Of a stretch of 64,000 nucleotides of DNA, positions 1-28,000 are shown piece by piece. The stretch comes from Cordylochernes scorpioides. Taxonomy: Eukaryota > Arthropoda > Arachnida > Pseudoscorpiones > Chernetidae. The notes beneath the pieces are model-generated. The model saw only the letters and a list, made by a program, of their open reading frames with translations. It searched no databases and was not told where the DNA came from. The stretch lies in contig CP092879.1 in the NCBI GenBank assembly GCA_030710605.1, positions 19,130,702-19,194,701 on the forward strand, given 5' to 3'. A program made the position numbers and the translations under genes. Every line of letters starts with the position of its first letter. The first letter of the stretch is position 1.

Positions 1-160
1 CAGAAGGTTATAGCGTCAGGCCATGCTAATCATAGTGAGTATAAGCTGTAGATGTATGTACTGAAAGTGTTCGTTCACTATATATCTACAAACAGCTTGA
101 CCTTTGCACACACAAGATGCCAAGTTCTCAATGTTTACTTACTAGCGGGGTTGGACATGT
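1..160. repeat. Dispersed SINE-like tail
   Basis: The stretch with TTCACTATATATCTAC, AGCTTGACCTTTGC and GCGGGGTTGGACAT resembles the body of the tRNA-derived element at 48410-48660, so it looks like an older, truncated copy. Confidence 0.4.
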
Positions 161-224
161 AGATTAATCAGAGGCCGTTGAAGCGATATTTTAAACTGTC
201 CAGTATTGTGGAAAAAAAGTATAA

Positions 225-370
225 AAGTGAAATTGTACTGTGTCAGGTGGATAAATTAAGAAAAAAGCATACCCTGATCGTACAACTAAAAGTTGCTGAT
301 GGCTTGTGCCATCTGTCGGAAGCCTTCAGCAACATTTCGTTGCACGATCAGCAGATGCCTTTTTTCTTTT
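225..370. repeat. Dispersed short repeat with 'GATGGCxxGCGCCATC' core
   Basis: Shares the series 'aaattgtactg... gatcgtacaact aaaagttgctgatgg ... gccatct... cgga' with copies near 10820-10870, 12925-13020, 51740-51900, 52120-52190 and 59420-59490. The core can pair with itself (atggc/gccat). Family unknown. Confidence 0.5.
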
Positions 371-1602
371 TGCTCAGTATTAGTTTGAATCCTGAGACCA
401 TGGTTACCGCCTGTTGCTCAGTATTAGTTTGAATCCTGAGACCATGGTTACCGCCTGTTGCTCAGTATTAGTTTGAATCCTGATACCATGGTTACCGCCT
501 GTTGCTCAGTATTAGTTTGAATCCTGAGACCATGGTTACCGCCTGTTGCTCAGTATTAGTTTGAATCCTGAGACCATGGTTACCGCCTGTTGCTCAGTAT
601 TAGTTTGAATCCTGAGACCATGGTTACCGCCTGTTGCTCAGTATTAGTTTGAATCCTGAGACCATGGTTACCGCCTGTTGCTCAGTATTAATTTGAATCC
701 TGAGACCATGGTTACCGCCTGTTGCTCAGTATTAGTTTGAATCCTGAGACCATGGTTACCGCCTGTTGCTCAGTATTAGTTTGAATCCTGAGACCATGGT
801 TACCGCCTGTTGCTCAGTATTAGTTTGAATCCTGAGACCATGGTTACCGCCTGTTGCTCAGTATTAGTTTGAATCCTGAGACCATGGTTACCGCCTGTTG
901 CTCAGTATTAGTTTGAATCCTGAGACCATGGTTACCGCCTGTTGCTCAGTATTAGTTTGAATCCTGAGACCATGGTTACCGCCTGTTGCTCAGTATTAGT
1001 TTGAATCCTGAGACCATGGTTACCGCCTGTTGCTCAGTATTAGTTTGAATCCTGAGACCATGGTTACCGCCTGTTGCTCAGTATTAGTTTGAATCCTGAG
1101 ACCATGGTTACCGCCTGTTGCTCAGTATTAGTTTGAATCCTGAGACCATGGTTACCGCCTGTTGCTCAGTATTAGTTTGAATCCTGAGACCATGGTTACC
1201 GCCTGTTGCTCAGTATTAGTTTGAATCCTGAGACCATGGTTACCGCCTGTTGCTCAGTATTAGTTTGAATCCTGAGACCATGGTTACCGCCTGTTGCTCA
1301 GTATTAGTTTGAATCCTGAGACCATGGTTACCGCCTGTTGCTCAGTATTAGTTTGAATCCTGAGACCATGGTTACCGCCTGTTGCTCAGTATTAGTTTGA
1401 ATCCTGAGACCATGGTTACCGCCTGTTGCTCAGTATTAGTTTGAATCCTGAGACCATGGTTACCGCCTGTTGCTCAGTATTAGTTTGAATCCTGAGACCA
1501 TGGTTACCGCCTGTTGCTCAGTATTAGTTTGAATCCTGAGACCATGGTTACCGCCTGTTGCTCAGTATTAGTTTGAATCCTGAGACCATGGTTACCGCCT
1601 GT
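371..1602 (+). repeat. 44-bp minisatellite, 28 copies
   Basis: Head-to-tail units of exactly 44 bp beginning TGCTCAGTATTAGTTTGAAT, with the palindrome ACCATGGT in each. Only two base variants were seen across 28 units (one in copy 3, one in copy 8). Such homogeneity means very recent amplification or strong conversion. No unit lies elsewhere in the window. Confidence 0.97.
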
Positions 1603-2580
1603 TTAGATCAAGCTACAAACAGAACAAAATCAAGCGACAAACAGAACAAAGGGCAACAGCCTGAAATACGTGGTTGTTTTTTTTTTCTAAATAAATTGTT
1701 ATTTATTCTGGAATATACTAAAAATCACGATCCCACACACATTTAAATTTATTCCGATAGATGGATCAAGCCATCAAAAACGTTCTGTTGCAGACGATAC
1801 TGAAGAATATAAGCCCCAGCCTGGTTATTACTATAAAATTCAAAGAAAGCATGCATCGATCTAAAGAACAACATATATAACAAATACAGATATATAAAAC
1901 TATTCACACATCTAAAAAAATGGCATTTAGTTTTAATTTTATAATAGTTTACATTCCCGGCATATAGGTGCGTTGTATGTACATTGTGAGGGCAGAATAG
2001 GCAGAACAGGGATAAAGGGACAAATCCTAGATAAAATGGATCACATTAAAGAGATGTTGTTGGAAGGAAGCAATCAAGGTGATAAAGAAACGGCCTTGTT
2101 TTAATATATTTTTTAAGGGAGAGGTGCTTATTTAGGTACTCGAATACCATCCTCCCTGTTGTTAGATAAATATATGTAAAAATGTAATGATAAGAGCGGA
2201 TGTTTATTCTCAACAAAAACTACTCAATAAGTCGTTAAGAAATTTCACAGTAAGCTAGCTGAGAATGATGATATAGTTCATCATAAATGTATAAACTATT
2301 TAAAAATTCAAAAGAATTTTATGTCAATTTGATATAAAAAAAACCTAATTTTTGTAATTCTTTTACCACTAGGGGCAGCACTGGTAGACCTAATAAATTT
2401 GATTGGGTGCTATTTTTGGCACAATATTTTTACGACTAAAATTACGCAACTATGTTTTAAGACGCTCTAACAAAACGTGGTTGAAATGCATCAGGAAAAA
2501 AGTTTTAAAAACTATATCTATTCTGCTAAGAATATGTAAATATTAATGACTGTAAAGATTATGAAGAAAGTGAGCTAAAG
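1603..2580. other. AT-rich, no supported feature
   Basis: Nothing firm was found apart from a short piece of the dispersed 'ccgatagatgg' repeat near 1752-1790. Confidence 0.5.
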
Positions 2581-2625
2581 AATGTGTCTTACACGTAGCT
2601 ACTTGAAGGTGTCGCCAAACATTTA

Positions 2626-2734
2626 TTACCCCAAGGACGTGACGGTCATAAAAAGGCAGGCCATAAAGTGCTGGAAAATTCCAGGAACAAGGTCAATGGC
2701 TGCACCGTCTGACAGCATGGATGACATAAGTACT
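2626..2734 (-). CDS. Candidate terminal exon (weak)
   Basis: A minus-strand AG at 2735-2736 is followed by 35 codons and a stop in the phase exon 7 needs (one base, then GTA CTT ATG...). The encoded tail contains a hydrophobic stretch L-V-P-G-I-F-Q-H-F-M-A-C-L-F-M-T. I do not recognise it as the usual last helix of Aa_trans proteins, and the acceptor has a purine-rich rather than pyrimidine-rich tract. The opposite strand is also open here, so this may be unrelated repeat DNA. Confidence 0.15.
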
Positions 2735-3399
2735 CTGTTCTTCAGTTTCTCTTGCATCAACACTATCTTTGTTTTCTGAATTCAACCTACATTTTATAAA
2801 TACACTGCCCAAATGAACTTGTTTGCTCCGGATTTTTGCAGAGTGATTGTTTTCTCAATGGTTTTAACAATGATTAATTATTATGGTTATTATAATAGTA
2901 ATTGTTGCAGCCGAATAATTATATTATTATGCTATATATCATTATTATAATCATTTTTATATCAATAAAATATGCTAATTAGTTTGTTTTATTAGGCTTT
3001 GAATTAATCTATATCTTCAGATACCTTTATGTAAAATTTTTCTAATGATTTATTCAGTAAATATTGTGGATTGACTTATTTAAATATAGATTTAATATTC
3101 ATTACTATATTTACTATATAAAAGGCTACACGCTACAGACATGCATGAAATTTACACTTTAAGAAAAGATAACATGATACTCAAATAATTAGGTTTTCAA
3201 CGTATTTATGTAAAATAGACGACGGTAGTGACACGAGGATTTGTTGAAGAGATTTTACATCAGGTTTCTTATACAGAAATTGTATTTGAAACGTTACTTC
3301 GTTGTGAAATGTTGACGATATATCGTTGTATTTCTGAGTTTGATTGACGTATAATTGTAACCTATACCGAGATTGCAGTTTATCATACTTCAGTATTTC

Positions 3400-4280
3400 T
3401 GATAGCGTCGTCGAGGTCTCATGACTGTTATCAGAATATAGAATCGATGGATTCAGGACGGTCAAATGGAACGACGTACTGGATCTCTGCGGTCCCCTAT
3501 CACTAACAGCCAAGAAGACCGACATGTCACTCCACATGCTCTTAATGGATCGTATAGGAAGAAATGAGGTCTTAGAAAGTCAAAGAGTGTTTGCACGAAT
3601 AATTCGACGCTATTTGAAGCAGCAAGGACTGTCAACTCGGCGACCATGACTTTGGCTACCCTTTAACTATATCACAGACATCTGTGGACGAAGGAATAGC
3701 GTGATGTATTTTCAGATCAATCTAGGTTTTGTTTGCAGCATCATGATGGCCGCATCTGTGTTTGAGGTCATCGTGGTAAAATCTCATTGCCAGCATGCAT
3801 TCGACATGTCACACCGGCTCATCACATGGGGTAATGGTATGGGGTGTCATTGGACACACGTCTCGGTCAATTCTTGTTCCCATTCCCGGAACTTTGAATA
3901 ATTCACCGTCACATTTCTGATGCGATAAGGCCCGTAGAAGTACCTCTTGTTCAAGGCTTGTGAAACGCTACGTTTCAGCAGGATAATGTACGACCGCATG
4001 GTTTCTGTACTGTACGTACAGACAAAGTTCGGCAACTGCCTTGAACAGCACGTTCTCTTGATCTGTCTGCAATAAAAAACGTCTGGTCAATGGTTTCCGA
4101 ACGACTGACTTGTTACAATACTCCAGTCACTACTGTCGATAAATGTAGCATAGTCTTGAGGCTGCATGTGAAGCTGTACATGTCATCCAGTCACTGTTTG
4201 TCTCAATGCCCAGGCGTTTAAATGCTGCTATTGCTACCAGAGGTGATTCTTCTGTGCATCGATTTCTAAGGTTCCATGTC
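3400..4280 (+). pseudogene. Tc1-like transposase relic
   Basis: A degenerate DDE transposase read across several frames on the plus strand. Recognisable blocks in order are an R-R-T-G-S/P-I-T-N-S-Q-E-D-R-H-V-T segment (about 3470-3530), R-R-Y-L-K-Q-Q-G-L-S-T-R-R-P (about 3600-3650), D-V-I-F-S-D-Q-S-R-F with the first catalytic Asp (about 3700-3735), V-M-V-W-G-V-I-G (about 3835-3860), F-Q-Q-D-N-V-R-P-H with the second Asp (about 3975-4005), and K-N-V-W-S-M-V-S-E-R-L (about 4075-4110). Many stops and frameshifts show it is long dead. No terminal inverted repeats were identified. Confidence 0.75.
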
Positions 4281-5280
4281 TTAAATTTATTGAAAATTTA
4301 ATCACTTGTTATTTCCAGTATAATGCATTTGTTATTTTGTTATTGACATTTCTTCTTGGTGTAGAAATTTAATGGCCACTAGTGCATATATTCATTCGCA
4401 TCTAAAATGGCATATCTTTCACTTGTAAATTTTACATCAAGATGTGTTTAAAAACTTGTGATTAGGATTCCAATATCTATCTTTGAATTAAAAATGTTCT
4501 CTTCTCCATTTTTATATATAATACTTCAAACTAACTACATACTTGCATACATGTTTACATCGATATAATGAACCTCTTAATCGGTATATACGCGTTTGCT
4601 TCACCTTTCCTCCCAACGTCATTTGTTAGCGCATGCGTATTTCACTTCATTTTTTATCGCCGCGGAGTGTATATGTATGGTATCACAGATTCGTCCATCT
4701 TTTGGCTTATTTCTGTACATAGCTTCGGTTAGTGGTATCCTCGATGATCTCTGACACATGTGTGACGGGCGATATTTTGATATTTGGATATTTATTAGCA
4801 CAAAAATAAATAAAAAATTGACGTCATCTGTATATCTAGGTTGCAAATATTTTCATTATTTTAAATTCATTTCAAGTCAAAATTTTATTTTAAAATCATA
4901 ATATTAGAAAAAGGAAAATATTAGGAATAGCATATTCTTATCAAACTGAAAGGTCGTTTCGACCTATAATTACAGCTGTTTTGAACGTTTCCTCTTTTAT
5001 AAGACAAAATCTTACTACCTAAACCGAGTGAAATTTCAATAATTATTTACTTTTCTAGGTTGAAAAGTAGAGAAACGAGGGTAATTCCAAATTTGATAGA
5101 AAAAAAAAACGAATTTCTTCGATTATATGTCTTAAGATTATAACAACAGGTTTGGTTATAACTATTGTAGAGGTTTGATTTCATAGCGCAAGTTGTTATG
5201 AGAGAGATATTTGAGATTATTGATATAGATAAGAGAGGAGAATAAAGCGTGACAACAGAAAATGAACTAAGATCCGATTC
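4281..5280. other. AT-rich intergenic or intronic DNA, no supported feature
   Basis: A minus-strand open stretch near 4640-4760 (R-I-P-L-T-E-A-M-Y) faintly resembles the loop after TM10 of transporters but lacks a membrane helix, so it is not called. Confidence 0.5.
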
Positions 5281-8200
5281 AACCTACCAAGCATGACAAA
5301 AGATGCTTACACTCCGAGCCAGTCCCCCTTAGTTCGAAGGAGCATGTCAACAAATGAGGTTTACATTCAAAGTATATCCCCTTAGGTCAACAGAATATGG
5401 CGACAGAAAGGGACTTACAATCCAAATATATCTCCCTTAGGTCAACAGAATATGGCAACAGAAAGGTACTTACATTCCAAGCATATCTCCCTTAGGTCGA
5501 CAGAACATGGCAACAGAAAGGGACTCACATTCCAGGCCAGTCTTCCTTAGGCCGACAGAACATGGCAACAGAAAGGAACTTACATTCCAAGCATATCTCC
5601 CTTAGGCCGACAGAACATGGTAACAGAAAGGGACTCACATTACAAGCATATCTCCCTTATTTCGACAGAACATGGTAACAGAAAGGGACTCACATTCCAG
5701 GCCAGTCTTCCTTAGGCCGACAGAACATGGCAACAGAAAGGAACTTACATTCCAAGCATATCTCCCTTAGGCCGGCAAAACAATGCAACAGAACGGGACT
5801 TACATTCCTGAGCAGTCTCCCTTAGGCCGGCAAAACATAGCAACAGAAAGGGACTCACATTCCAGGCTAGTCTTCCTTAGGTCGACAGAACATGGCAACA
5901 GAAAGGAACTTACATTCCAAGAATATCTCCCTTAGGCCGGCAAAACAATGCAACAGAACGGAACTTACATTCCTGACCAGTCTCCCTTAGGCCGGCAAAA
6001 CATAGCAACAGAAAGGGACTTACATTCCAAGCATTATCTCCCTTAGGCCGACAGAACATGGTAACAGAAAGGGACTCACATTCCAAACATATCTCCCTGA
6101 GGTCGACAGAACATGGCAACACAAAGGGTCTCACATTCCAAGCATATCTCCCTTAGGCCGACAGAACATGGTAACAGAAAGGGACTCACATTCCAAGCAT
6201 ATCTCCCTTAGGCCGACAGAACATGGCAACACAAAGGGTCTCACATTCCAAGCATATCTCCCTTAGGCCGACAGAACATGGTAACAGAAAGGGACTGACA
6301 TTCCAAGAATATCTCCCTTAGGCCGACAGAACATGGTAACAGAAAGGGACTCACATTCCAAGCATATCTCCCTTATGTCAAAAGAACATGGTAACAGAAA
6401 GGGACTCACATTCCAAGCATATCTCCCTTAGGTCGACAGAACATGGCAACAGAAAGGGACTCACATTCCAGGCCAGTCTTCCTTAGGCCGACAGAACATG
6501 GCAACAGAAAGGAACTTACATTCCAAGCATATCTCCCTTAGGCCGGCAAAACAATACAACAGAACGGGACTTACATTCCTGACCAGTCTCCCTTAGGCCG
6601 GCAAAACATAGCAACAGAAAGGGACTTACATTCCAAGCATATCTCCCTTAGGCCGGCAAAACAATACAACAGAACGGGACTTACATTCCTGACCAGTCTC
6701 CCTTAGGCCGGCAAAACATAGCAACAGAAAGGGACTTACATTCCAAGCATATCTCCCTTAGGTCGACAGAACATGGTAACAGAAAGGGACTCACATTCCA
6801 AGCATATCTCCCTTAGGCCGACAGAACATGGTAACAGAAAGGGACTCACATTCCAAGCATATCTCCCTTAGGTCGACAGAACATGATAACATAAAAGGAC
6901 TCACATTCCAAGCATATCTCCCTTAGGCCGACAGAACATGGTAACAGAAAGGGACTCACATTCCAAGCATATCTCCCTTAGGTCGACAGAACATGGCAAC
7001 ACAAAGGGTCTCACATTCCAAGCATATCTCCCTTAGGCCGACAGAACATGGCAACACAAAGGGTCTCACATTCCAAGCATATCTCCCTTAGGCCGACAGA
7101 ACATGGTAACAGAAAGGGACTCACATTCCAAGCATATCTCCCTTAGGCCGACAGAACATGGTAACAGAAAGGGACTTACATTCCAAGCATATCTCCCTTA
7201 GGTCGACAGAACATGATAACATAAAAGGACCCACATTCCAAGCATATCTCCCTTAGGCCGACAGAACATGGTAACAGAAAGGGACTCACATTCCAAGCAT
7301 ATCTCCCTTAGGCCGACAGAACATGGCAACACAAAGGGTCTCACATTCCAAGCATATCTCCCTTAGGCCGACAGAACATGGTAACAGAAAGGGACTGACA
7401 TTCCAAGAATATCTCCCTTAGGCCGACAGAACATGGTAACAGAAAGGGACTCACATTCCAAGCATATCTCCCTTATGTCGAAAGAACATGGTAACAGAAA
7501 GGGACTCACATTCCAAGCATATCTCCCTTAGGTCGACAGAACATGGCAACAGAAAGGGACTCACATTCCAGGCCAGTCTTCCTTAGGCCGACAGAACATG
7601 GCAACAGAAAGGAACTTACATTCCAAGCATATCTCCCTTAGGCCGGCAAAACAATACAACAGAACGGGACTTACATTCCTGACCAGTCTCCCTTAGGCCG
7701 GCAAAACATAGCAACAGAAAGGGACTTACATTCCAAGCATATCTCCCTTAGGCCGGCAAAACAATACAACAGAACGGGACTTACATTCCTGACCAGTCTC
7801 CCTTAGGCCGGCAAAACATAGCAACAGAAAGGGACTTACATTCCAAGCATATCTCCCTTAGGTCGACAGAACATGGTAACAGAAAGGGACTCACATTCCA
7901 AGCATATCTCCCTTAGGTCGACAGAACATGATAACATAAAAGGACTCACATTCCAAGCATATCTCCCTTAGGCCGACAGAACATGGTAACAGAAAGGGAC
8001 TCACATTCCAAGCATATCTCCCTTAGGTCGACAGAACATGGCAACACAAAGGGTCTCACATTCCAAGCATATCTCCCTTAGGCCGACAGAACATGGCAAC
8101 ACAAAGGGTCTCACATTCCAAGCATATCTCCCTTAGGCCGACAGAACATGGTAACAGAAAGGGACTCACATTCCAAGCATATCTCCCTTAGGCCGACAGA

Positions 8201-9870
8201 ACATGGTAACAGAAAGGGACTTACATTCCAAGCATATCTCCCTTAGGTCGACAGAACATGATAACATAAAAGGACTCACATTCCAAGCATATCTCCCTTA
8301 GGTCGACAGAACATGATAACATAAAAGGACTCACATTCCAAGCATATCTCCCTTAGGCCGACAGAACATGGTAACAGAAAGGGACTCACATTCCAAGCAT
8401 ATCTCCCTTAGGTCGACAGAACATGGCAACACAAAGGGTCTCACATTCCAAGCATATCTCCCTTAGGCCGACAGAACATGGTAACAGAAAGGGACTCACA
8501 TTCCAAGCATATCTCCCTTAGGCCGACAGAACATGGTAACAGAAAGGGACTTACATTCCAAGCATATCTCCCTTAGGTCGACAGAACATGATAACATAAA
8601 AGGACTCACATTCCAAGCATATCTCCCTTAGGCCGACAGAACATGGTAACAGAAAGGGACTCACATTCCAAGCATATCTCCCTTAGGTCGACAGAACATG
8701 GCAACACAAAGGGTCTCACATTCCAAGCATATCTCCCTTAGGTCGACAGAACATGGCAACACAAAAGGTCTCACATTCCAAGCATATCTCCCTTAGGTCG
8801 ACAGAACATGATAACATAAAAGGACTCACATTCCAAGCATATCTCCCTTAGGTCGACAGAACATGGCAACACAAAGGGTCTCACATTCCAAGCATATCTC
8901 CCTTAGGCCGACAGAACATGGTAACAGAAAGGGACTCACATTCCAAGCATATCTCCCTTAGGCCGACAGAACATGGTAACAGAAAGGGACTTACATTCCA
9001 AGCATATCTCCCTTAGGTCGACAGAACATGATAACATAAAAGGACTCACATTCCAAGCATATCTCCCTTAGGCCGACAGAACATGGTAACAGAAAGGGAC
9101 TCACATTCCAAGCATATCTCCCTTAGGTCGACAGAACATGGCAACACAAAGGGTCTCACATTCCAAGCATATCTCCCTTAGGCCGACAGAACATGGTAAC
9201 AGAAAGGGACTCACATTCCAAGCATATCTCCCTTAGGCCGACAGAACATGGTAACAGAAAGGGACTTACATTCCAAGCATATCTCCCTTAGGTCGACAGA
9301 ACATGATAACATAAAAGGACTCACATTCCAAGCATATCTCCCTTAGGCCGACAGAACATGGTAACAGAAAGGGACTCACATTCCAAGCATATCTCCCTTA
9401 GGTCGACAGAACATGGCAACACAAAGGGTCTCACATTCCATGCATATCTCCCTTAGGCCGACAGAACATGGTAACAGAAAGGGACTCACATTCCAAGCAT
9501 ATCTCCTTTAGGCCGACAGAACATGGTAACAGAAAGGGACTCACATTCCAAGCATATCTCCCTTATGTCGACAGAACATGGTAACAGAAAGGGACTTACA
9601 TTCCAGGCCAGTCTTCCTCAGGTCGACAGAACATGGCAACAGAAAGAGACTTACATTCCAGGCCAGTCTTCCTTAGGTCGACAGAACATGGCAACAGAAA
9701 GAGACTTACATTCCAGGCCAGTCTTCCTTAGGTCGACAGAACATGGCGACAGAAAGGGACTTACATTCCAGGCAAGTCCCCTATGACTACAGAACGTGGC
9801 AACAGAAAGGGACTTACATTACAGGCCAGTCTCCTATGTCTACAGAACGTGGCAACAGAAATAGACTTAC
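5281..9870 (-). repeat. 55-bp satellite (about 84 units) derived from a transporter exon end and its splice donor
   Basis: Period 55 bp, with variants arranged in higher-order blocks. Diagnostic variants recur 1100 bp (20 units) apart, for example 6291 and 7391, 6371 and 7471, 6541 and 7641. Read on the minus (gene-sense) strand, each unit contains CTGTCGGCCTAAGGGAGAT then GGAATGTAAGT or GGAATGTGAGT. The last bases of exon 7 and its donor carry the same series. Nearly every unit therefore offers a consensus 5' splice site in sense orientation inside the transporter's intron or 3' flank. Confidence 0.95.
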
Positions 9871-10060
9871 ATTCCAGGCCAATCTCCCTTAGGCCGACAG
9901 AGTAGGAGGTAGAAGAGGGGAGGGAAGATGAAGTTGGCTGATGTCCCAGCGAACGCTCCCACCAGATGCAGGATCTTGCTGAACTCAGGTATGGTCTCAC
10001 AGATCAACACCAGGAAGGCGACCAGGATAGTGCGGGTTACAATGCGGTGCCAGCCCAGCT
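9871..10060 (-). CDS. Transporter exon 7 (TM9-TM10), seed of the 55-bp satellite
   Basis: 190 nt, phase 1 to 2. The acceptor is GTTTCCAG before AGCTGGGC. It encodes L-G-W-H-R-I-V-T-R-T, TM9 ending in C-E-T-I-P-E-F, and TM10 with N-F-I-F-P-P-L-F-Y-L. It ends ...K-G-D-W-P-G at a consensus GTAAGT donor (9870-9865). The last 30 bases plus this donor are homologous to the tandem unit that fills 5281-9870. Reading on past the donor meets a stop after one codon, so the exon must end here or be terminal. Confidence 0.8.
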
Positions 10061-13000
10061 CTGGAAACATCGTTCTCATTTAATCTCATTCCTACATCCA
10101 CACAACTCTCTTAACTTATACAAACATAGTAGAACCTAACTGAAAATTAACAATCATTAATATATCTATGAAGCATCAATGTGTTTTAAAATCATTTATT
10201 GTTCATTTTGGAAAACGCAACTTTTCAAGTCGGTCTTATAATTGAATTGAAAGTTATATCAGATCATTCATAACTTAGTTGCAATTGAGCATTATCAAAA
10301 TAGTTTTCATTGGAGAGGGCGACGGTGGATCGCCGAAACGTTAAAAAAGGTTTCTAAAAAGGTTGTTTCAAAACATTTAACAAAATATTTGCCCATTGTT
10401 AGGTGCATTGTAAATTGGTATCTATGCCTATACATAGTTACTTCTTGGTATTTAATATATATTTGATAACATAGAAATATCAGTTTATTATGTTTGTAAG
10501 ATGTAAGTAATTTTATCATTTTAAAACCTGTGTTTATGAGATATGATAGGAAAGCTTTGTTTCCATATAGAAGATTTAGCTTCTTTCTATCTATCTTTAC
10601 CAAATTCAACAAACTCTTCATGATAAACTGTCTAAATATTCCCTGGTTAGGGAAGAAAGCAATGAAAAATTGTGCAATAAACACTTCCGTCAACTAAAGA
10701 AAGCTAATTCTTGCACCTTTTACAACTTCTTTGCGTGTATAATATATGTTATTGAATTGTTATTTCACACACGATATAGAGACTAAATTCATAATTACAA
10801 TATTGAATAGGTGGTGCATAAAGAAATATGAAAAATAGTACAAAAGAGAAATTGTACTGGGATCAGGAGGTTGTTGTTGTTGTTGTCGTGTCCAAAGAAG
10901 TCTCAGATGTCTCCATGCATCTCCATCACAGCAGCAGCAATATCCACTATCTTGGGTGTGTAAAGCTGCTGCTCTGGGTCTAAGTCAATTTTCTGCAAAG
11001 CTGCGGCCATTGCTGGGCATTAGAATATGTGAGTAGGTGTTAGTTCCACACCAGGACAGTTGTTGCATGCTCTATAGGTTCTTGTGCTATCTGGATGTAT
11101 TGTCATTCCTTTATAGTGTTTTGTTCTAAGTCTTTTTATAGTTTTTGTCAGTTTTCTCTCAGAGTTTATTTCACATATTTGATCTTTTCTTATTTTTTGT
11201 TTGATTATCTTGTATTTTGCCAAAGCATCAGCGTCAAATACTGACATTTGTTCTTTCCTTTGGCTCAGCTTTCTGGCTTCATTTGCCAATTCATCTGCCA
11301 TTTCATTACCCTCGATCCCAACATGGGCAGGAATCCATTGTAGAATGCAGTTCTTCTCCAATGTTTCCAGTTGGGTAAGTAATGAGTGTATTTTCTGCGT
11401 CATTCCAGTATTGCCCTTCTTAATTGCTTCTAGAGCGGATCTGGAGTCGCTGTATATTATGATTCCTTCTGCTTGATGCAGGGATGGTTGGTTCGGGCAT
11501 ACATCAAGGGCTTTCCAGATAGCTGTCAGTTCAAAAGTGAAGTTTGTCTAAGTCTTTCCTGCTCCTTCTTTGATCTTGATGTATGTTCCATCTTGGAGTA
11601 TTATGTTAATTCCGGCCCCTCCATTACTCAGGGTAAGGTCTGATAATCCATCTGTGTATGCTAATAAATAATTTTTCTGATCATATAAATCAATTGTGTC
11701 AAGTTCCTTCTTTTTAAGTATATTTTTGTTCTCTCTTTTATTGCAGGATTCATTCAGGTTGAGATTGATGATTACATTTGATGGTAATGGGGTAGGAAAT
11801 GTCGGTTCTTCTTGAATTTGAAAGTCATTGTGTTTCATGTTTATGCCCTTTCTATTATTGTTGTCGTGCTGAAGTGTTGAAGATATTTTAAGTCTTTCTT
11901 TTTGTGTCCATTTTTAATAGGTTCTATGGGATAGGTGTTCGTTTTTTTTTTACTTTTTGCGCTATTGGTGAATTTAATTGTTTTTAATTGTCTTCTGCTT
12001 CCAAGTAGGTCTAGACCACATTCTCTCTGAATTTTCTCACTGTTGGTGGATGAAATAGCACCAGTGATTATTTTAGCCGCCTTTGCTTGAACACTGTCTA
12101 GTCTTCCTTTTAGTGATGAGCTTTAGGGAGCCCAGACAGGTGTTGCATATTCCATTATTGGCCTTATTAAGGTGGTATATGTTGTTCTGAGGGTTTTGGG
12201 TTTTGCTCCCCAATTTGCTCCACATAATTTTCTCAGAGTATTTAGTTTTCTGGTAGCTCTATTTGAGGTGATAATTATGTGTTCTGTAAATCGCAATTCC
12301 TCATCAAGTATCACACCTAGGTATTTTGGATTTCTAATTTTATCAATTACTAGCGGATGTGTACCCGGCTTCGCCCGGGTTTTATCCGAGTGAAAGTTTG
12401 CCTAACGAATATTATATATTATGAAGTATAATAAACAATGTTAAAGATTAGTTTTAATTATTAATCAAGATTGTGTGTGAATATGTGAGAAAGATGTAAT
12501 ATCGTTGTTGTTTTCTTGGCCGACTGTTTTACATATGATGTTATCTTAAAATTGCTTGTTTTGAATATTTTTTTAGATTGAGTTGAATGAATTGCTAATT
12601 TTTTTTTTTTGTATTTATATATAAATAAAATTAACTCTGTTGATTTTTTTTTGTATTAATCGATAACAGCGAAGTTACGCATGTTAAAGTTAGGAAAAAA
12701 TATTTTGATGTTAAGCAAAACCTGCTCCATCTCGTTTTACATAAATGTTGAAAATTTGGTCGAAATTGATGCATTGTAACGAAAGTTTTTAGCGAACACC
12801 ACTTATGAAATTTGCATTTTATTAATATAGATTTGGTTATTTATGCTTATTTTGGGATTTAAATTTATGCCTGTTTTTCCTGTCAGTGGAGAAGACGCAT
12901 AGGTTTGTTTTTATTGGGTTCATCTCCTGATCGTGCAACTGGAAGTTACTGATGTCTTGCGCCCTCTATAGGATTAAATTTCAACTATTCGTTGATATTC

Positions 13001-16000
13001 AATTATTTCAGAATATTTCCCGAATATCATCTACTTATATAATTGCCTTATTCTGTCTGTGTGAAGTTCACTGTGTGAAGTTCACGGATAGATTTTGGTC
13101 AGAATGGATAAAATAAAAAAGTGTCAAGGGATGGGAATCGAACCCACGACCTTCCGCTTACCGGGCAGATGCCATGACCACTAGGCCACATGACCACAAT
13201 TTATAATTGTAACAAATAGTATTTGAATCAAAACCTTCAATCGGGTAAAACACGGGCGTTGCCCGGGTTATTCGGCTAGTTTATTAATAAATCAAGAAAA
13301 TACAACTACGTAGGCGTTTCAGATTGTTGACCCTCGTCAGCGTGATACAGGCTGTACCTAAACAATTAAAAAATCAGGTTCTAGAGACTTCTTGGAAAAT
13401 CAGTGAATTGTCACTTAAGATTATAAATGAGTGAGAACATAAAACTATCCGTATGGGATTAACTCATCTTGATATTTCAAGAAAGGACATTTAGATAATA
13501 TTATAGAATGATTAAAAATTAACTATTACTTGACATTTATTCTACCAGATTGAAAAGTATGGTAAGATTGTGGAGAAGTAGAAAACTAAGTAGCTAAATA
13601 AAGTGTCATTATTTATACATTAAATATATTTTGAGAACCTCCGTTGTAAATATGATAGTAATTTGTAGACCTTGCAAGGGTATTCTCACGAAAATATACA
13701 TTTATTGAAATTTTTGATTTGTCATACACAACCCCTCTAAGATTGTTTTCAATAACATGGGGATTTCATTTGTCGAAATCCTTTAAGTGACCTTTCGGAT
13801 TATGATCCTGGCTTAATATATATATATCTCTCTCTGGTTGTCAAAAATCTACAATCAATTTCACCTCCATATATTTCTATCTGTTGTACCTCTATATCAT
13901 CTTTACACTACTTGATTAAAAATTTGGATTTGTCATACTACCTCTTAGATTGTTTGCAATACATGGGGATTTCATTTGTCGAAATCCTTTAAGTGACCTT
14001 TCGGATTATGATCCTGGCTTAATCTCTGGTTGTCAAAATTCTACAATATATTTCACCTCCATATATTCCTATCTGTTGTATCTCTACATCATCTTTATAC
14101 TACTTGATTAACACAGACTTCTCTATTTAAAATTCTCCTTAGCTATATAACGAAAAGAGCATAATAACAAAGGAGAAACATTATTTGTATTTCGATAATA
14201 CTTAAAACACAGGCTTTCAAACCTACCGGTCTTCTATGAGTGGAGCTCTTCAACTTTCCACTTTTCTATTATTTAAACAATTAAAAAGGTTTCCGGAGAT
14301 GAGTTCTTTTTATTTTTAAACCGTCTCAAGCTTTCGGGCATCTCTGCCCTTCTACAGGAGAACTTCTACATTGAATAAAACGCCGCCTGATGCCTAACTT
14401 TGACGGCGTTTTATCCATTGTATAAGTTCTCCTATAGAAAGTCTGAGATGCCCGAAAGCTTGAGATGGTTTTAAAATAAAAAGAAATTCATCTCCGGAAA
14501 CATTTTTAATTATTTAATTAATATCCAGGAGATTCAAATCAATTGACTTTGCTATTAGACTTTCCGTTACAAGTTTCTCTGTTTTGTCCATTCCACATAG
14601 CAGTTAGAAAACGACTGTTTGTCGACTTACTCTTGGGCAACTTGAGGTATTCTTCTATCTCCTGGGCGGGGGAGTTGACCATGATCTGGAAGGCCGCAGC
14701 GAAGTGGATGATGATGAGAACCTGGGCAGCAGTCCGCAATGGACTTGCACTGAGGGACTCCAGGACATTGCCGGACACGCGGTCGCCATACACGTACTTG
14801 CCGGCCAGGCCCATGCTGACGTACATGAGGATCAGACCTGTGGACAACAGCAAGCCAGATTATCATCAGGAAGGAATCCTATAAGTGTTTCATATAAACA
14901 TGTCATAATATTGAGAAATATTTAAATTAAGATAGCTTGTTTGTTGGACATGTGGTGCGTGGATCAGCAGGAGAGACATTGCTGACAGTGTTGGAGGGAA
15001 AGCTCCAGGGGAGGAGACGACGGGGATACACAGACGATCTAAAACAATGAACTGGACGACACGAGGAGATGAAGAGGATGGCGGAGGACCAAGAAGTATG
15101 GTGAGACCATGTGACCCACCTTCAGTAGAGGAAGGCATTGAAGGAAGAAGTATGGAGAGACCATGTGGTCCACCCTCAGTAGAGGAAGGCATTGAAGGAA
15201 GGAAGTATGGAGGGACCATGTGGCCCACCCTCAGTAGAGGAAGACATTGAAGGAAGGAAGTATGGAGGGACCATGTGGCCCACCCTCAGTCGAGGAAGAC
15301 ATTGAAGGAAGGAAGTATGGTGAGACCATGTGACCCACCTTCAGTAGAGGAAGGCATTGAAGGAAGGAAGTATGGAGGGACCATGTGGCCCACCCTCAGT
15401 AGAGGAAGGCATTGAAGGAAGGAAGAAAAACTGTGTGAAAGTATGAGGAAAGGAAAGAGAAAATTCCCTGGTCAGAGCAACCCCTGGGTGACCATATGCC
15501 CAGCCTTCTAAAAACAAACATTCCCGAGATCTCCCGTCTCACCCCTTCCCCTTGGGGATAATTTATCCTACTCAAAAGTTTAAAAGCCTCTATATTTGAT
15601 GATCAAGAGACAGTTAGCACCGAGGTGATCTCGACATCAGTTGTTCCCAGGGTGGTCCTCAGGCCTTCTCTTTCCTCTCCGATCTGCATCTCACGGGGTT
15701 TTACTTCTGGATCCTGACTCCTGTGTACGTCCTTACCACACAACTACCACGACTGCTTCGCATATCACCACATATATTTAATGTATAGAGCGAGATCAAA
15801 TTAAAGATTCCGCCATTATATGTAACACGCTGAACGAGAAGACTGAGTAGAAGCGCTTTTTTGTATTCAGTGAACCTTTATTACAAGTTTTCAAACTTTA
15901 TGTCCTCCAAAAGGCACAAGGAAAGCTTTCCTTTAGCTCTTATCTTGCCATTCCATGTACTCGTTGAAGGACATAATGATTACTGAATGAAATAAATGCT

Positions 16001-19000
16001 TCCCTTTAGTCTTCTCGTTTCTATAAAGTAAGATATTGCATAGAACTGACTTACCAATATAAGCAATGATGACAGCCAGACTGAACTTATTCCTGTTCTT
16101 CATGTCATTCTGGAAGGATGGGAAGGCGGGCGTGCCAGCGTAGGCGAAGGAGAAGGTGCTCAGAGCGAGGAAGAAGTGGTCCGTGGTCATGACGGCCGCC
16201 GGGGCGGGGACGTGGGTGACGGCCGTGAACTCGTAGTACATCTGGAGCAGGGCGAGCACGCAGCACACCGCCGTCGTGGAGATGGCCAGCACGGCGATGA
16301 ACCTTCGCCAACACTTCATGTTCAAAACCTGACTATCGATGAGCATAATTGACATCACAGTCAGTAAACATGTTCCATACTCATCAAAGTCAGTAAGCAT
16401 GCTTTATAACCAGAACTTCACTATCAATGAGCATTTTTGATGTCCAACACATCACTGCCAGGAAGCATGTTTAATATTCAACACGTACTGTCAATGTTTT
16501 ATCTCCAACACAAGTTAATGTCAGTTTGAATGTTTGTCGTCCCTACACAGCAAGCATGTTTATGTTCAACATGTAAGCGTTAAAGAGCATATTTCATATT
16601 CAAAATATGTCTAATGTCCAGTACATCATTCTTAGTGAACATGCTTATTGGTCAACATACCATTATCAGTGATCCTGCTCTGACACTCAAAGAACCACAC
16701 AAATAGAGGGACCATGAAGTCAGGGAGAATGCCTCCTGTCCAACTTGCGCACTGTTCTTGCTTAATGTCCAAAGCACAATTACATTTCCAATAAACGTGT
16801 GCGTGGGATGTACAAAGACTTGAAGCCTGGCACTTACATCTTTCTGCTAACCTCTCTAACGTTCATAAATTACTTAAATCAATATAAAACCTAAACTTAC
16901 AAAACTTCTATAAATTCCAGAGGTGGCTTATTTAGAGGAAATTTTAAAACTGTCTAGACGCAGAGATATAATAATTTTCTCCCAAAATATTTTTCCAAGT
17001 TTGAATTTCCAATGGTTCATCAATATTAACTAGAATAATTTTTAACGCCTTGCCAAATGTTTTAATTTTTATTTGCTCCCGACGAGAAAAAAATATTTCT
17101 GTCGAAACGTCGAGATAATAAAAGATTTACTGGCCGAAGTATCTTTAATAAAAAAAAACTATGAATGTCGGCCAGGCAGCCTCTTTCTTTAAGATAATAT
17201 TAACTCTGTACTACCGTGTCGCTGTGTAACAAACATTTAGAAATACTACGAGACGTTAGGCTAAAAGTTGAATGTTAAGCTTTCTATATCTTTTACAGTT
17301 TTATTATAAAATAATATCTGCTAACAATATATGTCTTAATGTCACATATATAATAACTAGCCGAATGACCCGGGCAACGCCCGGGGTTTACCCGATTAAA
17401 TGCTTTTATTCAAATACTATTCGTTACAATTATAAATTGGCGCCGTGGATGTCATTCTTGTATAATATATAAATGAGTTTTAAAAATTGTAAAAAAAAAA
17501 ATGCATCGGCCGGAAATCGAACCCGGGGCGCCCGCGTGGCAGGCGAGCATTCTACCACTGAACCAAAAGCAAACGGTGACAGAATTAAGAACGGATGACG
17601 CTGATAACTGTATATAGAATATTAATTTTACACATAACTGTACAGATACTACTTTAAAAAATGTGAAGGATACTAAAAGAGCAATTGACAAAGAGGTATA
17701 TCTACCTAGCGAATTCCCACCACAGTATTGACAGTCCATCCTCAGGTCTCCCAGTTCACAGAAAGAATTGTACAAGCAGCCATCATATGTGAGGTTTATA
17801 ATCTTGTAGCGTCCTCTTATTGACTACCCTAGCCACGAGAAAGGTGTGTTTGCTATATTCAATTGGTAATTCTGTTCTCTGTTATTTGTATATTGACTTT
17901 CTAAAGTTGATCGTTTTGTTATAAGGCCATATTAGTCGAAGACAGATTGAGATATTATATCCTATATGGAGATAGAAGAAATCTCTGATCCGACCACAAA
18001 TCGGTCGATTTCCTTATTACAACCAGTATTATTTAAATAAAAAGCCATATATTGGATCAAAATATCATTTATTTTACCAATATTTCAGTTGGCTGAATGC
18101 CAACCTTTATCAAGGTATTATAACATTTTAAAGTGTGTCAACAACAAACTCAGCGCCACATAACGTCGATGAAATTAAGTTTAAAAAATAGTTTTGCTTA
18201 TATTCAATGGGGAGAAAAAAATTGATATATCAAGTTTTTTGACACACTTTAAAATGTTATAATACTTTGATAAAGGTTGGCGTTCAGCCAACTGAAATAT
18301 TGGTAAAATAAAGGATATTTTGATCCAATATATGCCTTTTTATTTAAAGATTTATTTATGGATTGCTCTATTTTCAAAGCCAGTATTATATTTAAATATA
18401 TAAGAACAGAAACTAAAAGAAGACCATCAAAGATATTTCAATCTTAATTTATAAACCTATTTTATGAGTTATTTTTATTAAATCAATTATCATATTTGAA
18501 TACATAATTATTTTAATTTGATGGCTTCAGCTTATTAAAGTGAATTCGTTTAGAAATGTTTAACCGCGACTATTGTATATTGATTTATATGTAAGGATGT
18601 AAGGCAGGCTTGGAAGTCTTGCAAATAAAAAAAAGATAAAACCATACATAAAAATGCTAGATTTTCGAATTTCGTAAGTATAAAAAGAACACGGTTGCGT
18701 TAGTTTGAGCTATTCCGGGTCAATATGGTGAGATTGTTTGGCAGAAGGCTGGCCATAAAGGCATAAAGCTGTCATCTGGAGCAAATATGGATAAGATAAG
18801 AACACATAGGGTAGGGTCCGTTGGATTTTTATGATGTTTATGCATTCCTCTACCTCTCTATACCGTTTGAATTTTGTTTTATTATAATCTCTATCGAGAG
18901 CTTCTTTCATCTAGTAGTAGACTCACATTTGCTGAAGTACACCTCTAATAGCGTTTAGTAATATGGACTTAAATAGGTTGAAAATCCCCTCAGGAGACCT

Positions 19001-22000
19001 TCGTTCAGAAGTGGGCTCACATAGGCTGAAATATTCCTCTAGGAGAGGCCTTCGTTTAGTAATATGGAGTTATATAGGTTAAAAAATCCCCTCGTTCAGT
19101 AGTGGACTCAAGAGGGCTGAAACATCTCTCAAGAAACTTTCGTTTAGTAATTGAATCACGAGAGCTGAAGCATTCCTTTAGGAGATATCTTTGCCCATCA
19201 GTCGACTCGCATGAGCATCAGAATCGATTGACCTTCTGGCTCATCCTTAGACTCACATGGGCTAAAATATAATTCCTTTCAATAGTTCATTCTACTCAAG
19301 CGCATTGGTTAATAAGACAGATTGATAGGAATTCTGGCTTTAAGGGCATTAATTTTTCTTACGGTCAACAGTATAGTTGCAGAGAACGTCCCTTGAGATA
19401 AGGATAATCCTGGCCTTCCTGGAGATTATCTCTCAATAGAGACTTATTATATATATCAGATCATTTTTTATTCAGAGAATTATTTTACTGTTGAATCTTT
19501 TTAAATTATCCTTGGTGAATATTAGCTAGTCTTCCATAAAATATAGGAATTTGTGTTTATTCAAACTAAAATTAGGATAGAACTTTTGAGAGCGTGGTTA
19601 TACATCGTTTCAAGATAATAGATTGGATCATTGAAAGGCTACTTACCAGAAATCGTGAGGAGATCCGAGGAAGGTAAAAGGCAGTAAGATCAAACTCAGT
19701 AGGACGATCCACACACAAAACGACATGCCAAGTTGTGGAAACATCTGCTGAAGAAACTTGCTGATAACCAGGATGTAGACGACGTCTCCACCAAGCAGAC
19801 TGAAGTAGCTGCAGATAGATACTGGAATCCTACAGCAGAACACGTGGTATTCTCACATGAATGCCAATGGGAGATATAGTTGTACCTCATCCACGGAGCC
19901 ACGGCCTTCTCCCCCATAGTTGGATAGGGATTTCCGCATTTCTGCGACTTGTATTGGGGCCAACGTTCCTCCACAATCATCCAGCTCTTCCCCAGCAAGA
20001 TTCCCATCAGTCCGGCCACTACGCTGTAGTACAGGAGGATGGCCACGCCGTACCATTCTGTCACACGCAGTCGTTTGGTCCTGTGCAACAGACCTTTATC
20101 TCCACTCACCTGTGTCGACGAATGCTCTACTGATGGCCATCATCCCTGCTCCGGCCTGCTCGCCCATGATAAACATGATGACCATGAACACGGATAGTCC
20201 TTTGTGTTTCTTTGGTACTTCATTTTCCTGCATCACATATTTGGACGTTATAAGATGAACATCATTTTAATATTTGCCTTAATCCCTAATATGGTAGAGT
20301 AGAACTTTCCGTAAGAAACCGTCCATAAATATAGATAACCCCGGACTTAATGGATGTTAGATTAGGTCGAGTCATTTTTGATTTTCAAAGTAGCCGCAGA
20401 TAACTACCATGTTTAAACCAAGGGTAGCAATCGTCGAGATATACAATAAGACATTTAAAAGAACAAATTTACTTCAGAGCCTAAAGTACCTAGTTATGCC
20501 CTATCTCTCAGAGGAGCAAGATTATTTCAAATCCATTGAAACGGGGGGAAATTTGCCAAACATAGCCAAAATACAATAAGACATTTAAAAGAACAAATTT
20601 ACTTCAGAGCCTAAAGTACCTAGTTATGCTCTATCTCTCAGAGGAGCAAGATAATTTCAAATCCATTGAAACGGGGGAAAATTTGCCAAACATAGCCAAA
20701 ATACAATTTTTCAAAATATTTGAAGGAATAAAACACTAATAGAGACAAAAGACTATTATTTATTTTAAAAACATTTAAAGACATATGAATGCCGGTCAGA
20801 AATCCTCTATCATAACGAAAAAAAAAACTATCAGATTCCTTTTCTTAAATTTTTGGGGGCCAGATAAATAATTCCTTAGGATGCCCAACGGTGGAAAACC
20901 AAGACAAAAGATACAATGAGAAGCTTAAATGTAAAAACTGCGTCGAAGAGCATTTAACAACGTAATGCCTTAATCATAACAAAAACATATCGTCACAGAT
21001 GGACATTTAAATTACAAAACTTCAGATAATTTTTGGACAGAATTTATAAAAAGAACAGGATCCTTTTCGTCGAAGATTGACCTTATAAATAAGTTAAAGA
21101 TGCACACAATTGAACTTAAAACGTCCCTAGACAATTTTAATTTAATCATAGAATGAGGCAGTAAAAAATTGACCTTTTTTGGTTCTACAAGAACTGCCAG
21201 TCATGAGTTTCACCCCATAGAACATGAACAAGCAGTTCAAGACGCAGTAGAAGGTTAGGTTGAGTACGACTGCCTAAACTTATACACAATGTCCTGCAAT
21301 CTTGTTTGCAACCTATTGATTGAATGGAAGGGCTTTTATCTTTGTTTACTTTTCTCAATCTCACGACGTCACTAGCTTACTAGGGAAATTGGTGATGACA
21401 TATTCTTCTTAAAACATTTCACGCTACATTGTAGTTCGCAGAGATGATTCTTATTTTGTTACTAGCCGAATGACCCGGGCAACGCCCGTGTTTTACCCGA
21501 TTGAATGTTTTGATTCAAATACTATTTGTTACAATTATAAATTGGCGCCTTAAATAAATGCATATATTAGTTAATAACTATAGCCTATGTGCTTTATCTG
21601 TCTATGTACTGTTGGCTTCCGTAGGCGTCTCTTACTGGGAAAAAGAGAGGATTCCATTTGGTTATTAACTAATATATGCATTTATTTAAGGAGCGACCCG
21701 CTCCAACACAATGGTTACAAAAACGAAAAAGCGAGTGGGGGGGGGGCATGATGGGGGGGGGGGGGGCAAAGGTGGCGTGATTGTAGCCGACCAATAGGAG
21801 GGCGCCATTCCAAAAAAAAAAAGCAAACGGTGACAGAGATGACTGATGAAGAATGACGCTCGTAACTGTATATAGAATTCCTATAAGGCGCTGATACGGC
21901 AATTTCTTGACGTTCACAAATCTGAAATCTTCTCTTGAAATGTTTCGAGAAACATTTTACTTAATTATATATAGCTAATGCCTTTATATAAAAATCCCAT

Positions 22001-25000: not shown

Positions 25001-28000
25001 TACCAATATTATTCTTATTATAAGATATCAAAAACCTTTCGCAACAAGTTTCTTTATTAAAAATATTATTCGCCGTTATGTATAATGTCTTTGTAATATG
25101 TATAAAATAATTGTATTATGTACGTATTTTTGTATATTCGCCATAATAATATTATTCGCCATGCAATAAGAAAAACAACTTTTTAAGAAAAACACGAATT
25201 TTTGGGATAACCTTATAGTTATCTACAGCCTCTCAACTTCTTCAATGGACGCTCATTTTAGAGAAAAATTTCTTCAAGTGTGGGAAGAGATGGAAGTCTG
25301 AAAGTGCCAAATCAGGAGAATTGGGGAATTTAAAGAGAAACTTTTTTTTTATAAACTAAAAATGTACTTGGAATTTAAGGAAATTTAGGCAGGTGATTAT
25401 TATTTTAATTCGCTCCGCGTTGAATTTGCACACATAGACAATAATTTAAAATAACATAAAAATTAATAACTATAAGATAATTTGGGAAATAAAGATATAT
25501 TCAAAATTGTGTTAATTATAATTTTTTATAGAAATAAAAATTTCATGTATGTGAAAATAAAGACTAAGAACAAAAGGAAAGTTGAAATTACTTACAGAGG
25601 GTGTAACTCAGCATTTACAAAAATTAATTTTCAGACATAATAACTGCGGAGAATAAGGGAAAAATTGTGCACTTCTTGAATTCGATAGCATTATCTAACA
25701 TCGGTGTTAGATTGTATGAAGGAAATCAATAAAAACAAATATTTTTATAGAAGAGTATTTATTACTCTTTAGAGTATGCATAAAGTTGTCCCAAAAATTC
25801 GTGTTTTTCTTTTAACGTTGTTTTTCGCATTACTTGGCTCCAAGATTACTCCACCAGAAATCTACGAAGATTTGCTGCTACCCCGAAACTACTCCTCCAA
25901 ATGCTTCGAAACATCAAGCATGGATCTACCTCCACAACAATCCAGACCGGCCATGGTTACATTCAGGCAGACCTTGCAACGGTATCGAAAGAAGACCCAA
26001 TTTGCCCCCACAGCCAAGATAAAGACCAAACCGTAGACCACCTCCTCTTCACTTGCCCAACCTTCCAATACCAAAGATTCCAGACAGCCACTCTCCTAGG
26101 TATCACCAACATATGTCCAGCATCCCTAGAAAATCTCCCAAGAAAGAAATCTGCCTGGCGACACCTCATTAATTGGACTTCCACTGGCATTGTATATAAA
26201 TCCAAGAAGACTTAGTTCAGAAGGACATCCCGGGTAGTTGGCGACTTCTGTACGCTCCAGGAACCTGGGTTACTTAAATAAATAATAATTGGCGAATTAA
26301 ATTATTACGGCGAAGAACATAATAATACATAATACAATTACTTTATACATAATACAAAGACATTATACATAACGGCGAATAATATTGGTATTTCAAATTT
26401 TTGCAAGTGTTTACGAACTTTTGGGACATTTGTAGTAAGCATTGATTGTTAATTCCCCCAACGTTTCTAGTTGATCACTTCCTGATTAATAGCGTGAGTA
26501 TTATATTATTTTAGAACAGAACTTAATTTTTTTATTATCGCCACAAACTCTCACGTTTACCATTATTACAATGATAGACAGCTACAATATATTGAAATCA
26601 TTTCATAAACGCGACCTAATCTGTCAAAAAAGAAGATATATCTAGCTGTTGAACGCTAGTGCCTACTTTAGATGACAAAATTAATTATTATGTATCCAAT
26701 TTCAAATAAATATGTATATGAACTAAGAAAATTAAGGAATAACCATTGTGCCTTTTGTAAGCAAGGATTTAAATCTTTCCAAACATATACAAGCTACAAA
26801 TGTATAAATGAAAATATTAAGATGCGAATGTTTCTTTTCACAAATAAATCACACTTCTACTGTCCTTACTGCGATTAAAAAAATATTGGGAGGGCTAGGC
26901 TCATCAGTGAAGAGCCCTTACAGCAGTTTCGTCAATTTAATCTACCAGACCTCTTCTTTAGAGCTCTAATACCGTATTGGTCATTCAGCTTTCATCGCAG
27001 TAAGGACAGTAGAATTTTGATTTATTTGTGAAAAGAAACATTCGCGTCTTAATGTTTTCATTTGTTATATATAGATGGCGCGATATTACCTTGTACTAAC
27101 AAATGTATAAGTTACCTACGTTTTTCAGGTTGAAGATGTCGGAGAGGCGTAGGGATCGTATGTCGACGACGACCATCATGACGTGAAGGTTATATAATTC
27201 TATGTATAGAAGATGGTATCATTAAGTTAGATATTAGATCTTAGTTAAGAGAGCTTATACATAGATTAGAGGACAATTGCTACTTCCACGCTGTTGGCAT
27301 CTCAGCTCTCAGAAGAATCAGAAAGTTCTGCCCAGATTCTTATCATGTTTGCAGCCTCGTAAATGGGGGACCATATAGTTTATCTGTGTCGTATCTTTGC
27401 TTCTGTACCTAGCGACATGGGTGGTATATAGGAGGTGATCCTACACGGACCTTATACTGTAGGTGATCTCGTGTAGCTACTTTAGGATATTTCTTCAGTG
27501 ATCACTGACATAGGCGGTATATGGTAGGTGCTCCTACAAGGGCCTTATACTGTAGGTGATCCCGTGTAGATACATTAGAATATATCCCCTGTGATCCCTG
27601 ACATTATCGGTATATGGTAGGTGCTCCCGTGTAGGTACGTCAGAATATTTCTCTGTGATTCTTGACACGGACCTTATACTTTAGGTGATCCCGTGTAGAT
27701 ACATCAGGATATTTCTTCAGTGTTCACTGACATGTGCAGTGTATGGTAGGTGCTCCCGTGTAGGTACGTTAGAATATTTCTCTGTGATTCTTGACACGGA
27801 CCTTATACTTTAGGTGATCCCGTGTAGATACATCAGGATATTTCTTCAGTGTTCACTGACATGTGCTGTGTATGGTAGGTGCTCCCGTGTAGGTACGTTA
27901 GAATATTTCTCTGTGATTCTTGACACGGACCTTATACTTTAGGTGATCCCGTGTAGATACATCAGGATATTTCTTCAGTGTTCACTGACATGTGCTGTGT

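Follow-up and report, generated by a model that had tools for sequence, protein, structure and literature searches.

The locus described here raises two questions: whether a tandem repeat that begins inside a coding exon, and reiterates its 5′ splice site, grew from that exon or supplied its end, and what so many copies of a splice donor would mean for the host gene. The window, by which we mean the whole stretch of 64,000 nucleotides analysed (G000:C17:19130702-19194701 of a 2.62-Gb assembly of Cordylochernes scorpioides), carries on its minus strand the gene LAZ67_17000841, whose deposited product, P0001, is the best protein match to our reading of exons 2-7 (97% over all 372 residues). The gene codes for an amino-acid transporter, with a match to the Pfam profile Aa_trans (PF01490) scoring 202.7 bits against a curated cut-off of 25.6, and its product weakly resembles proton-coupled amino acid transporter 1, the structure of which is solved. 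Coordinates are collected in Table 1.

Table 1. Features of the transporter gene and of its array, in window positions.
Feature	Position	Strand	Basis
55-bp minisatellite, 84 donor-bearing units	5281..9901	-	TRF and unit parsing
Unit 1, copy 53 long: 31 coding bases of exon 7 and 22 intron bases	9849..9901	-	sequence and parsing
Exon 1 (MMVVVDIRSLRLSDIFNLKN), deposited model	27120..27179	-	tblastn of P0001
Exon 2	20110..20227	-	haplotype gene rebuild
Exon 3	19886..20057	-	haplotype gene rebuild
Exon 4	19647..19829	-	haplotype gene rebuild
Exon 5	16055..16302	-	haplotype gene rebuild
Exon 6	14631..14837	-	haplotype gene rebuild
Exon 7, 190 nt, end GGA AT|, phase 2, acceptor TTTCCAG	9871..10060	-	rebuild and homology to P0003-P0008
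True 5′ splice site of intron 7, GTAAGT, T at -1	9865..9870	-	frame continues into exon 8 at acceptor TTTCAG|A
TAA stop reached immediately without use of the first donor (GGA ATG TAA)	9867..9869	-	sequence
Rest of intron 7, window haplotype	1..5280	-	exon 8 lies 312 bases beyond, on c2, if c4 and c2 abut
Array stretch taken as exon by deposited model; acceptor TTCTGTAG, donor GGAAT|GTAAGT	9710..9786	-	judged artefact
Second array stretch taken as exon; acceptor GGCCTAAG, donor GGAAT|GTAAGT	6024..6151	-	judged artefact

Anatomy of the array

TRF reports positions 5363-9901 as a repeat of period 55, with 82.6 copies and 90% matches, and parsing by donor anchors yields 84 donor-like sites, the spacing being exactly 55 in 78 of 83 cases; around 5281-5450 the final two or three units are degenerate. 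This agrees with an earlier note on this DNA, which had described a 55-bp unit in about 84 copies over 4.6 kb, and which numbered the adjoining exon 7, as does the deposited gene model. In its general layout the unit combines 31 exon-derived bases with about 24 intron bases. The note was right that the exon end forms part of the unit, but the shared portion is 31 bases, starting at 9901 (where the TRF call also ends), and not the last 30 (9900-9871). The native donor of exon 7 is at the same time the donor of unit 1, so that the repeat includes the native splice donor.

The most frequent types of donor site (positions -3 to +6, n=84) are AATGTGAGT (37), AATGTAAGT (28) and AATGTGAGA (13); the rare ones are AATGTCAGT (2) and AATGTGGGT, ATTGTAAGT, AATGTAAAC and AGTGTAAGC (1 each). 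GT is present in all 84 sites and GTRAGT in 66 (79%), i.e. in most units, although the wording that nearly every unit has GTAAGT or GTGAGT was slightly generous. These 66 occurrences fall within 4,620 bases of the sense strand of the array, its opposite strand having none, against a background of 17 in the 54,095 bases of the minus strand outside it; the density of GTRAGT and its 55-base spacing are more than chance. The pyrimidine-rich stretch said to end in CTAAG about 17 bases before the donor is likewise there: CTAAG occurs 74 times within 9870-5281, and in the bulk unit it lies 17 nt before AAT|GT. Each unit also contains ATGTAA or ATGTGA, which is a stop in one frame.

A genome search with an exact 24-mer of the unit returned 19 matches and one with a 401-b piece of the array 27, all of them in just two arrays; for repeats such counts are lower bounds, very common words being skipped. 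The second array, at C17:18995063-18997459, about 140 kb from that of the window, has 43.7 copies by TRF and 44 donors, with GTRAGT in 41 and GT in all 44, and it likewise begins inside a copy of exon 7 of identical protein sequence. Satellite DNA proper forms long arrays at many loci or in heterochromatin, whereas the genome searches found these two arrays only, which are read below as alleles; the term “satellite” of the earlier note should thus give way to single-locus minisatellite.

Two arrays as probable alleles of one gene

The surrounding 264 kb (C17:18930702-19194701) are divided by three 100-N gaps into four contigs, c1-c4, and the first base of the window is the start of its contig, c4. 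The contig arms form long inverted blocks, mostly 95-98.5% identical, with 87-88% in two array-bearing blocks. At one cut point, the end of c3 is the equivalent of position 19140814 and the end of c1 that of 19140813; at the other, the first base of the window corresponds to 18990107 and the start of c2 to 18990106. Exon 8 was not found inside the window with the last exon of P0003 as query (E up to 10), and is located from base 312 of c2 onwards, which adjoins the start of the window's contig. Rejoined in this way, haplotype 1 (c3 and c1) and haplotype 2 (window and c2) each code for the same 423 residues (exons 2-8) followed by a stop, with differences at 10 of 1,272 nucleotides, all silent, and no inner stop. 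Exons 7 and 8 each have exactly two copies in the genome at 100% protein identity. Provided that c4 and c2 abut, the window haplotype has an intron 7 of 10,181 bases, compared with 7,639 on the other haplotype. A reading of the window gene as a truncated pseudogene was rejected in view of the intact frame of the rejoined haplotypes.

Since contig ends join up across the gaps with single-base precision, the two arrays are best read as alleles, one of 84 and one of 44 units; the array is length-polymorphic only under this reading, and its lengths are known from one assembly. It is improbable that the arrays are instead paralogs in a real palindromic duplication. The order of the assembly does place them so, inverted blocks occur dispersed across some 250 kb, and two array-bearing ones are just 87-88% identical, but each of the three joints is a 100-N gap, the two cut points agree to the single base, and a complete gene appears on each haplotype only after rejoining. 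The 264-kb region as a whole looks like a pair of uncollapsed haplotypes, adjacent but in inverted order and interrupted by the three gaps. P0002 (LAZ67_17000838) most plausibly represents exons 2-6 of the other haplotype, continued into a retrotransposon, and the gene models LAZ67_17000838 and LAZ67_17000841 would then belong to two alleles of one gene.

Relative age of the exon edge and the array

Searching the genome with exon 7 gave 18 matches, and the exon end could be read in 14 of them, namely in the pair at the window gene, in that of P0003 and at another ten loci. After merging of near-identical neighbours, the twelve loci outside the window pair amount to 8 genes. In all eight the coding end is homologous and, as read from the sequence, an AG|GT donor occupies the same phase-2 position; these relatives are on C1, C2, C5, C8, C17 and C23. 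The terminal residues are LCRPKGDWPG in the window gene, LCRPRGEWAG in the neighbouring paralog P0003 and LCRQKGEWPER in P0005/P0006. Variants include extra residues before the donor (L045), GTCAGT (L044) and GTTGGT (L039/40) as donors, and an end without the usual WP-D/E (L048). A match to exon 8 lies downstream in four of the eight genes (P0003, L045, L043 and L046/47), which are on C2 (12.85/12.91 Mb), C5, C8 and C17.

The earlier note had named related genes with an exon ending elsewhere as the finding that would speak against growth of the repeat from the exon edge, and the opposite was observed. The same phase-2 end in eight other family genes shows the exon edge to be older than the array, and supports the proposal that the array grew from it. 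The unit was not found in the other family genes in the genome searches with the 24-mer and the 401-b piece, and in the 2.9-kb intron 7 of P0003 no tandem array longer than 250 bases was listed. At the end of exon 7, AT|GT is peculiar to the window gene, the eight others having AG|GT, and because the T at -1 is present in the array units too, the change at this base is likely to be older than the expansion.

Array turnover and neighbouring repeats

There are 38 distinct unit types in the window array and 29 in the second array, with 7 shared. Counting from the exon, units 1, 2, 4 and 5 are identical between the arrays, and units 3 and 6 differ; at the distal end none of eight compared units is identical, with 1 to 8 columns differing. 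Such a pattern, with renewal of the interior, would be usual for a minisatellite. AATGT does not vary across 53 distinct units of the interior, but the donor as a whole is not clearly set apart by its conservation. With all letters considered, ten of the 55 possible 9-column windows are more conserved than the donor 9-mer, which is among the best 3 of 55 if purines and pyrimidines are pooled (R/Y).

Other repeats were noted nearby. Within intron 7, a 44-bp minisatellite at 370-1603 comprises 28 units with a mean identity of 99.8%, seemingly a very recent burst, and is represented by one unit on the contig of the other haplotype (C17:18990333). A 113-bp unit occurs once at 1989-2086 and 10 times, at about 99%, on the other haplotype (L015:39-1172), and a 104-bp unit occurs twice at 45650-45844 and 51 times (5.3 kb) on the other haplotype's contig (C17:19092310-19097589). 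Three of the six units counted are therefore single or double on one haplotype and present in 10 to 51 copies on the other; provided that the assembly did not create these contrasts, they may be more surprising than the donor array. A 129-bp minisatellite at 27543-30960, about 360 bases upstream of exon 1, is of similar length on the two haplotypes, with 26.6 and 25.7 copies. Frames at 42324-43517, on the minus strand, resemble what is presumably a broken mariner-type transposase, and intron 6 contains at 10906-12401 what we take to be a decayed non-LTR retrotransposon, with frames resembling RNase H and reverse transcriptase; a piece related to the latter element sits on c3 at 19129190-19129804.

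Predicted consequences for splicing

Donor strength was expressed as U1 pairing energy in a simple duplex model, in kcal/mol. The donors of exons 2-7 score -13.3, -5.7, -10.7, -9.1, -6.4 and -5.4, respectively, making the true exon 7 donor the weakest of the six scored; it is also the weakest of 9 exon 7 donors in the family, the others ranging from -5.5 (L048) to -12.1. The commonest unit types in the array have energies of -5.4 to -5.5, with 13 of the 84 at -4.4 and a single unit at -6.8; an isolated GT site at the distal edge of the array reaches -8.8. Because the unit donors about equal the true donor in modelled energy, the first donor would have no advantage in strength over most of them.

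Use of a later donor, or retention of the intron, is predicted to add one residue before a stop, so that the protein would end in LCRPKGDWPGM and would miss its last 51 residues, i.e. exon 8 and its split codon. The distance from this stop to the junction is 49 bases with the second donor (9817) and 102 with the third (9764). In vertebrates, RNA decay follows a 50-55 base rule, under which most later-donor RNAs would be open to decay. Neither AATAAA nor ATTAAA occurs inside the array on the sense strand, against nine and five, respectively, in the remaining intron 7 sequence of the window. The functions that the earlier note proposed for the array, as splice decoys, in the control of intron retention or as an alternative 3′ terminus, are hypothetical.

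Origin and role of the array

We consider it most likely, with a probability of about 0.8, that a working transporter gene gave rise, at the boundary of its exon 7 and intron 7, to an intronic VNTR, which offers competing donors at most and is tolerated; on the genomic evidence the array would be a VNTR with a possible splicing cost rather than a proven regulator. Its history may have begun with a tandem duplication across the boundary, followed by growth and shrinkage through unequal exchange or replication slippage. Turnover would renew the interior, with most exon-side units remaining shared between the arrays. As a side effect, the donors of most units would roughly equal the real one in U1 pairing strength, and the array, if active at all, might lower productive splicing somewhat by competition, more so in longer alleles.

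It is possible, but in our opinion doubtful, that the array is a selected splicing rheostat, in which similar donors sequester U1 or divert splicing and array length sets the share of full-length product. Such a role would suit an exon 7 donor with the weakest U1 pairing in gene and family, the AT|GT junction peculiar to this gene, and the retention of GT in 84/84 and 44/44 units. The units are mutual copies, however, and would be alike without any selection, the test of donor conservation is weak (ten of 55 windows do better with all letters), and nearby minisatellites are at least as variable in copy number. The human ABCA7 VNTR speaks both ways: expression decreases and skipping of exon 19 increases with its length, but the isoform retaining one unit, which leads to a frameshift and stop, stays at about 2% across lengths (PMC5954066).

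We regard as a long shot the proposal that the -1 G was lost at the exon 7 donor and that the array then joined in the recognition of a weak exon, as a cooperative splice site. Tens of weak U1 sites would jointly define the exon, and array length would tune the output of full-length transporter; if so, the splice site would be the array and not any single site.

Splicing of the units as micro-exons, from the CTAAG acceptor to the donor 17 nt further on, with many isoforms as the result, is highly improbable. The candidate acceptors have a mean pyrimidine fraction of 0.71 at -20 to -4, with A at -3, and are thus richer in pyrimidines than the seven real acceptors scored in the gene (0.35-0.65), one of which, that of exon 5, also has an AAG end; moreover, the deposited model contains two array exons. 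Beyond exon 7, P0001 takes in 9786-9710 and 6151-6024 of the array before continuing to 3540, and our rebuild of this model from residue 341 reproduced the first 182 of 194 residues. The model most likely uses these stretches because its contig stops before the real exon 8, which is on another contig, and so the array exons are unsupported as real ones; the stop in one frame of each unit also argues against micro-exons. The case is a warning that contig ends and uncollapsed haplotypes can thread the exons of gene models through repeats. Finally, the idea that the exon end came from a foreign satellite that had entered the gene is rejected as next to impossible, given that the repeat has no other copies found in the genome and that the exon end is homologous in relatives.

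With a tolerated VNTR as the preferred reading, the locus constitutes a natural competition experiment, in which one acceptor faces a series of similar donors, 84 or 44 of them, at intervals of about 55 bases. Only the first donor would give the full protein, and the two apparent alleles code for an identical one. How the first among many equal donors is chosen is usually asked with designed minigenes. The locus would also provide a minisatellite born from an exon edge whose ancestral state can be read in relatives.

Comparison with known splice-donor repeats

Splice-donor VNTRs are already known in human ABCA7 and IFI6, and the resemblance of the present array to them is anatomical: the native donor lies in the repeat and most units have a donor (GTRAGT in 66/84 and 41/44). 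In ABCA7 intron 18, a 25-bp unit, the first two bases of which are the exon 18 donor, is present in about 12 to 427 units (PMC5954066). Both are tandem repeats placed directly at an exon and including its native donor, and both are length-polymorphic, here if the arrays are alleles. The ABCA7 repeat starts at GT and includes no exon sequence, whereas our 55-bp unit has 31 coding bases, and ABCA7 was studied in RNA and at many lengths, whereas the present case consists of genomic sequence with two arrays read as alleles.

The IFI6 minisatellite has a 12 bp unit and extends the frame by a few codons. This gene (also 6-16 or G1P3) is described as having multiple splice donors in its minisatellite, two downstream repeat units being used as donors to give three mRNA species (PMC4526556, citing Turri, Cuin and Porter 1995). 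The array would similarly be a minisatellite carrying many candidate donors, but here every downstream donor would lead directly to a stop. Intron gain by tandem duplication, in which copying across an exon/intron boundary duplicates the splice signals (PMC4974935), resembles the present case in that such signals were apparently copied across a boundary; it differs in that no new intron was formed. A gained intron would be absent from relatives, and the same intron position is read in all eight family genes. No such array was found in the literature searched on the genome assembly of this species and on splice-donor repeats. What would be new here is a larger, single-locus invertebrate array with coding exon in its unit, an immediate stop behind each later donor, and a readable ancestral state.
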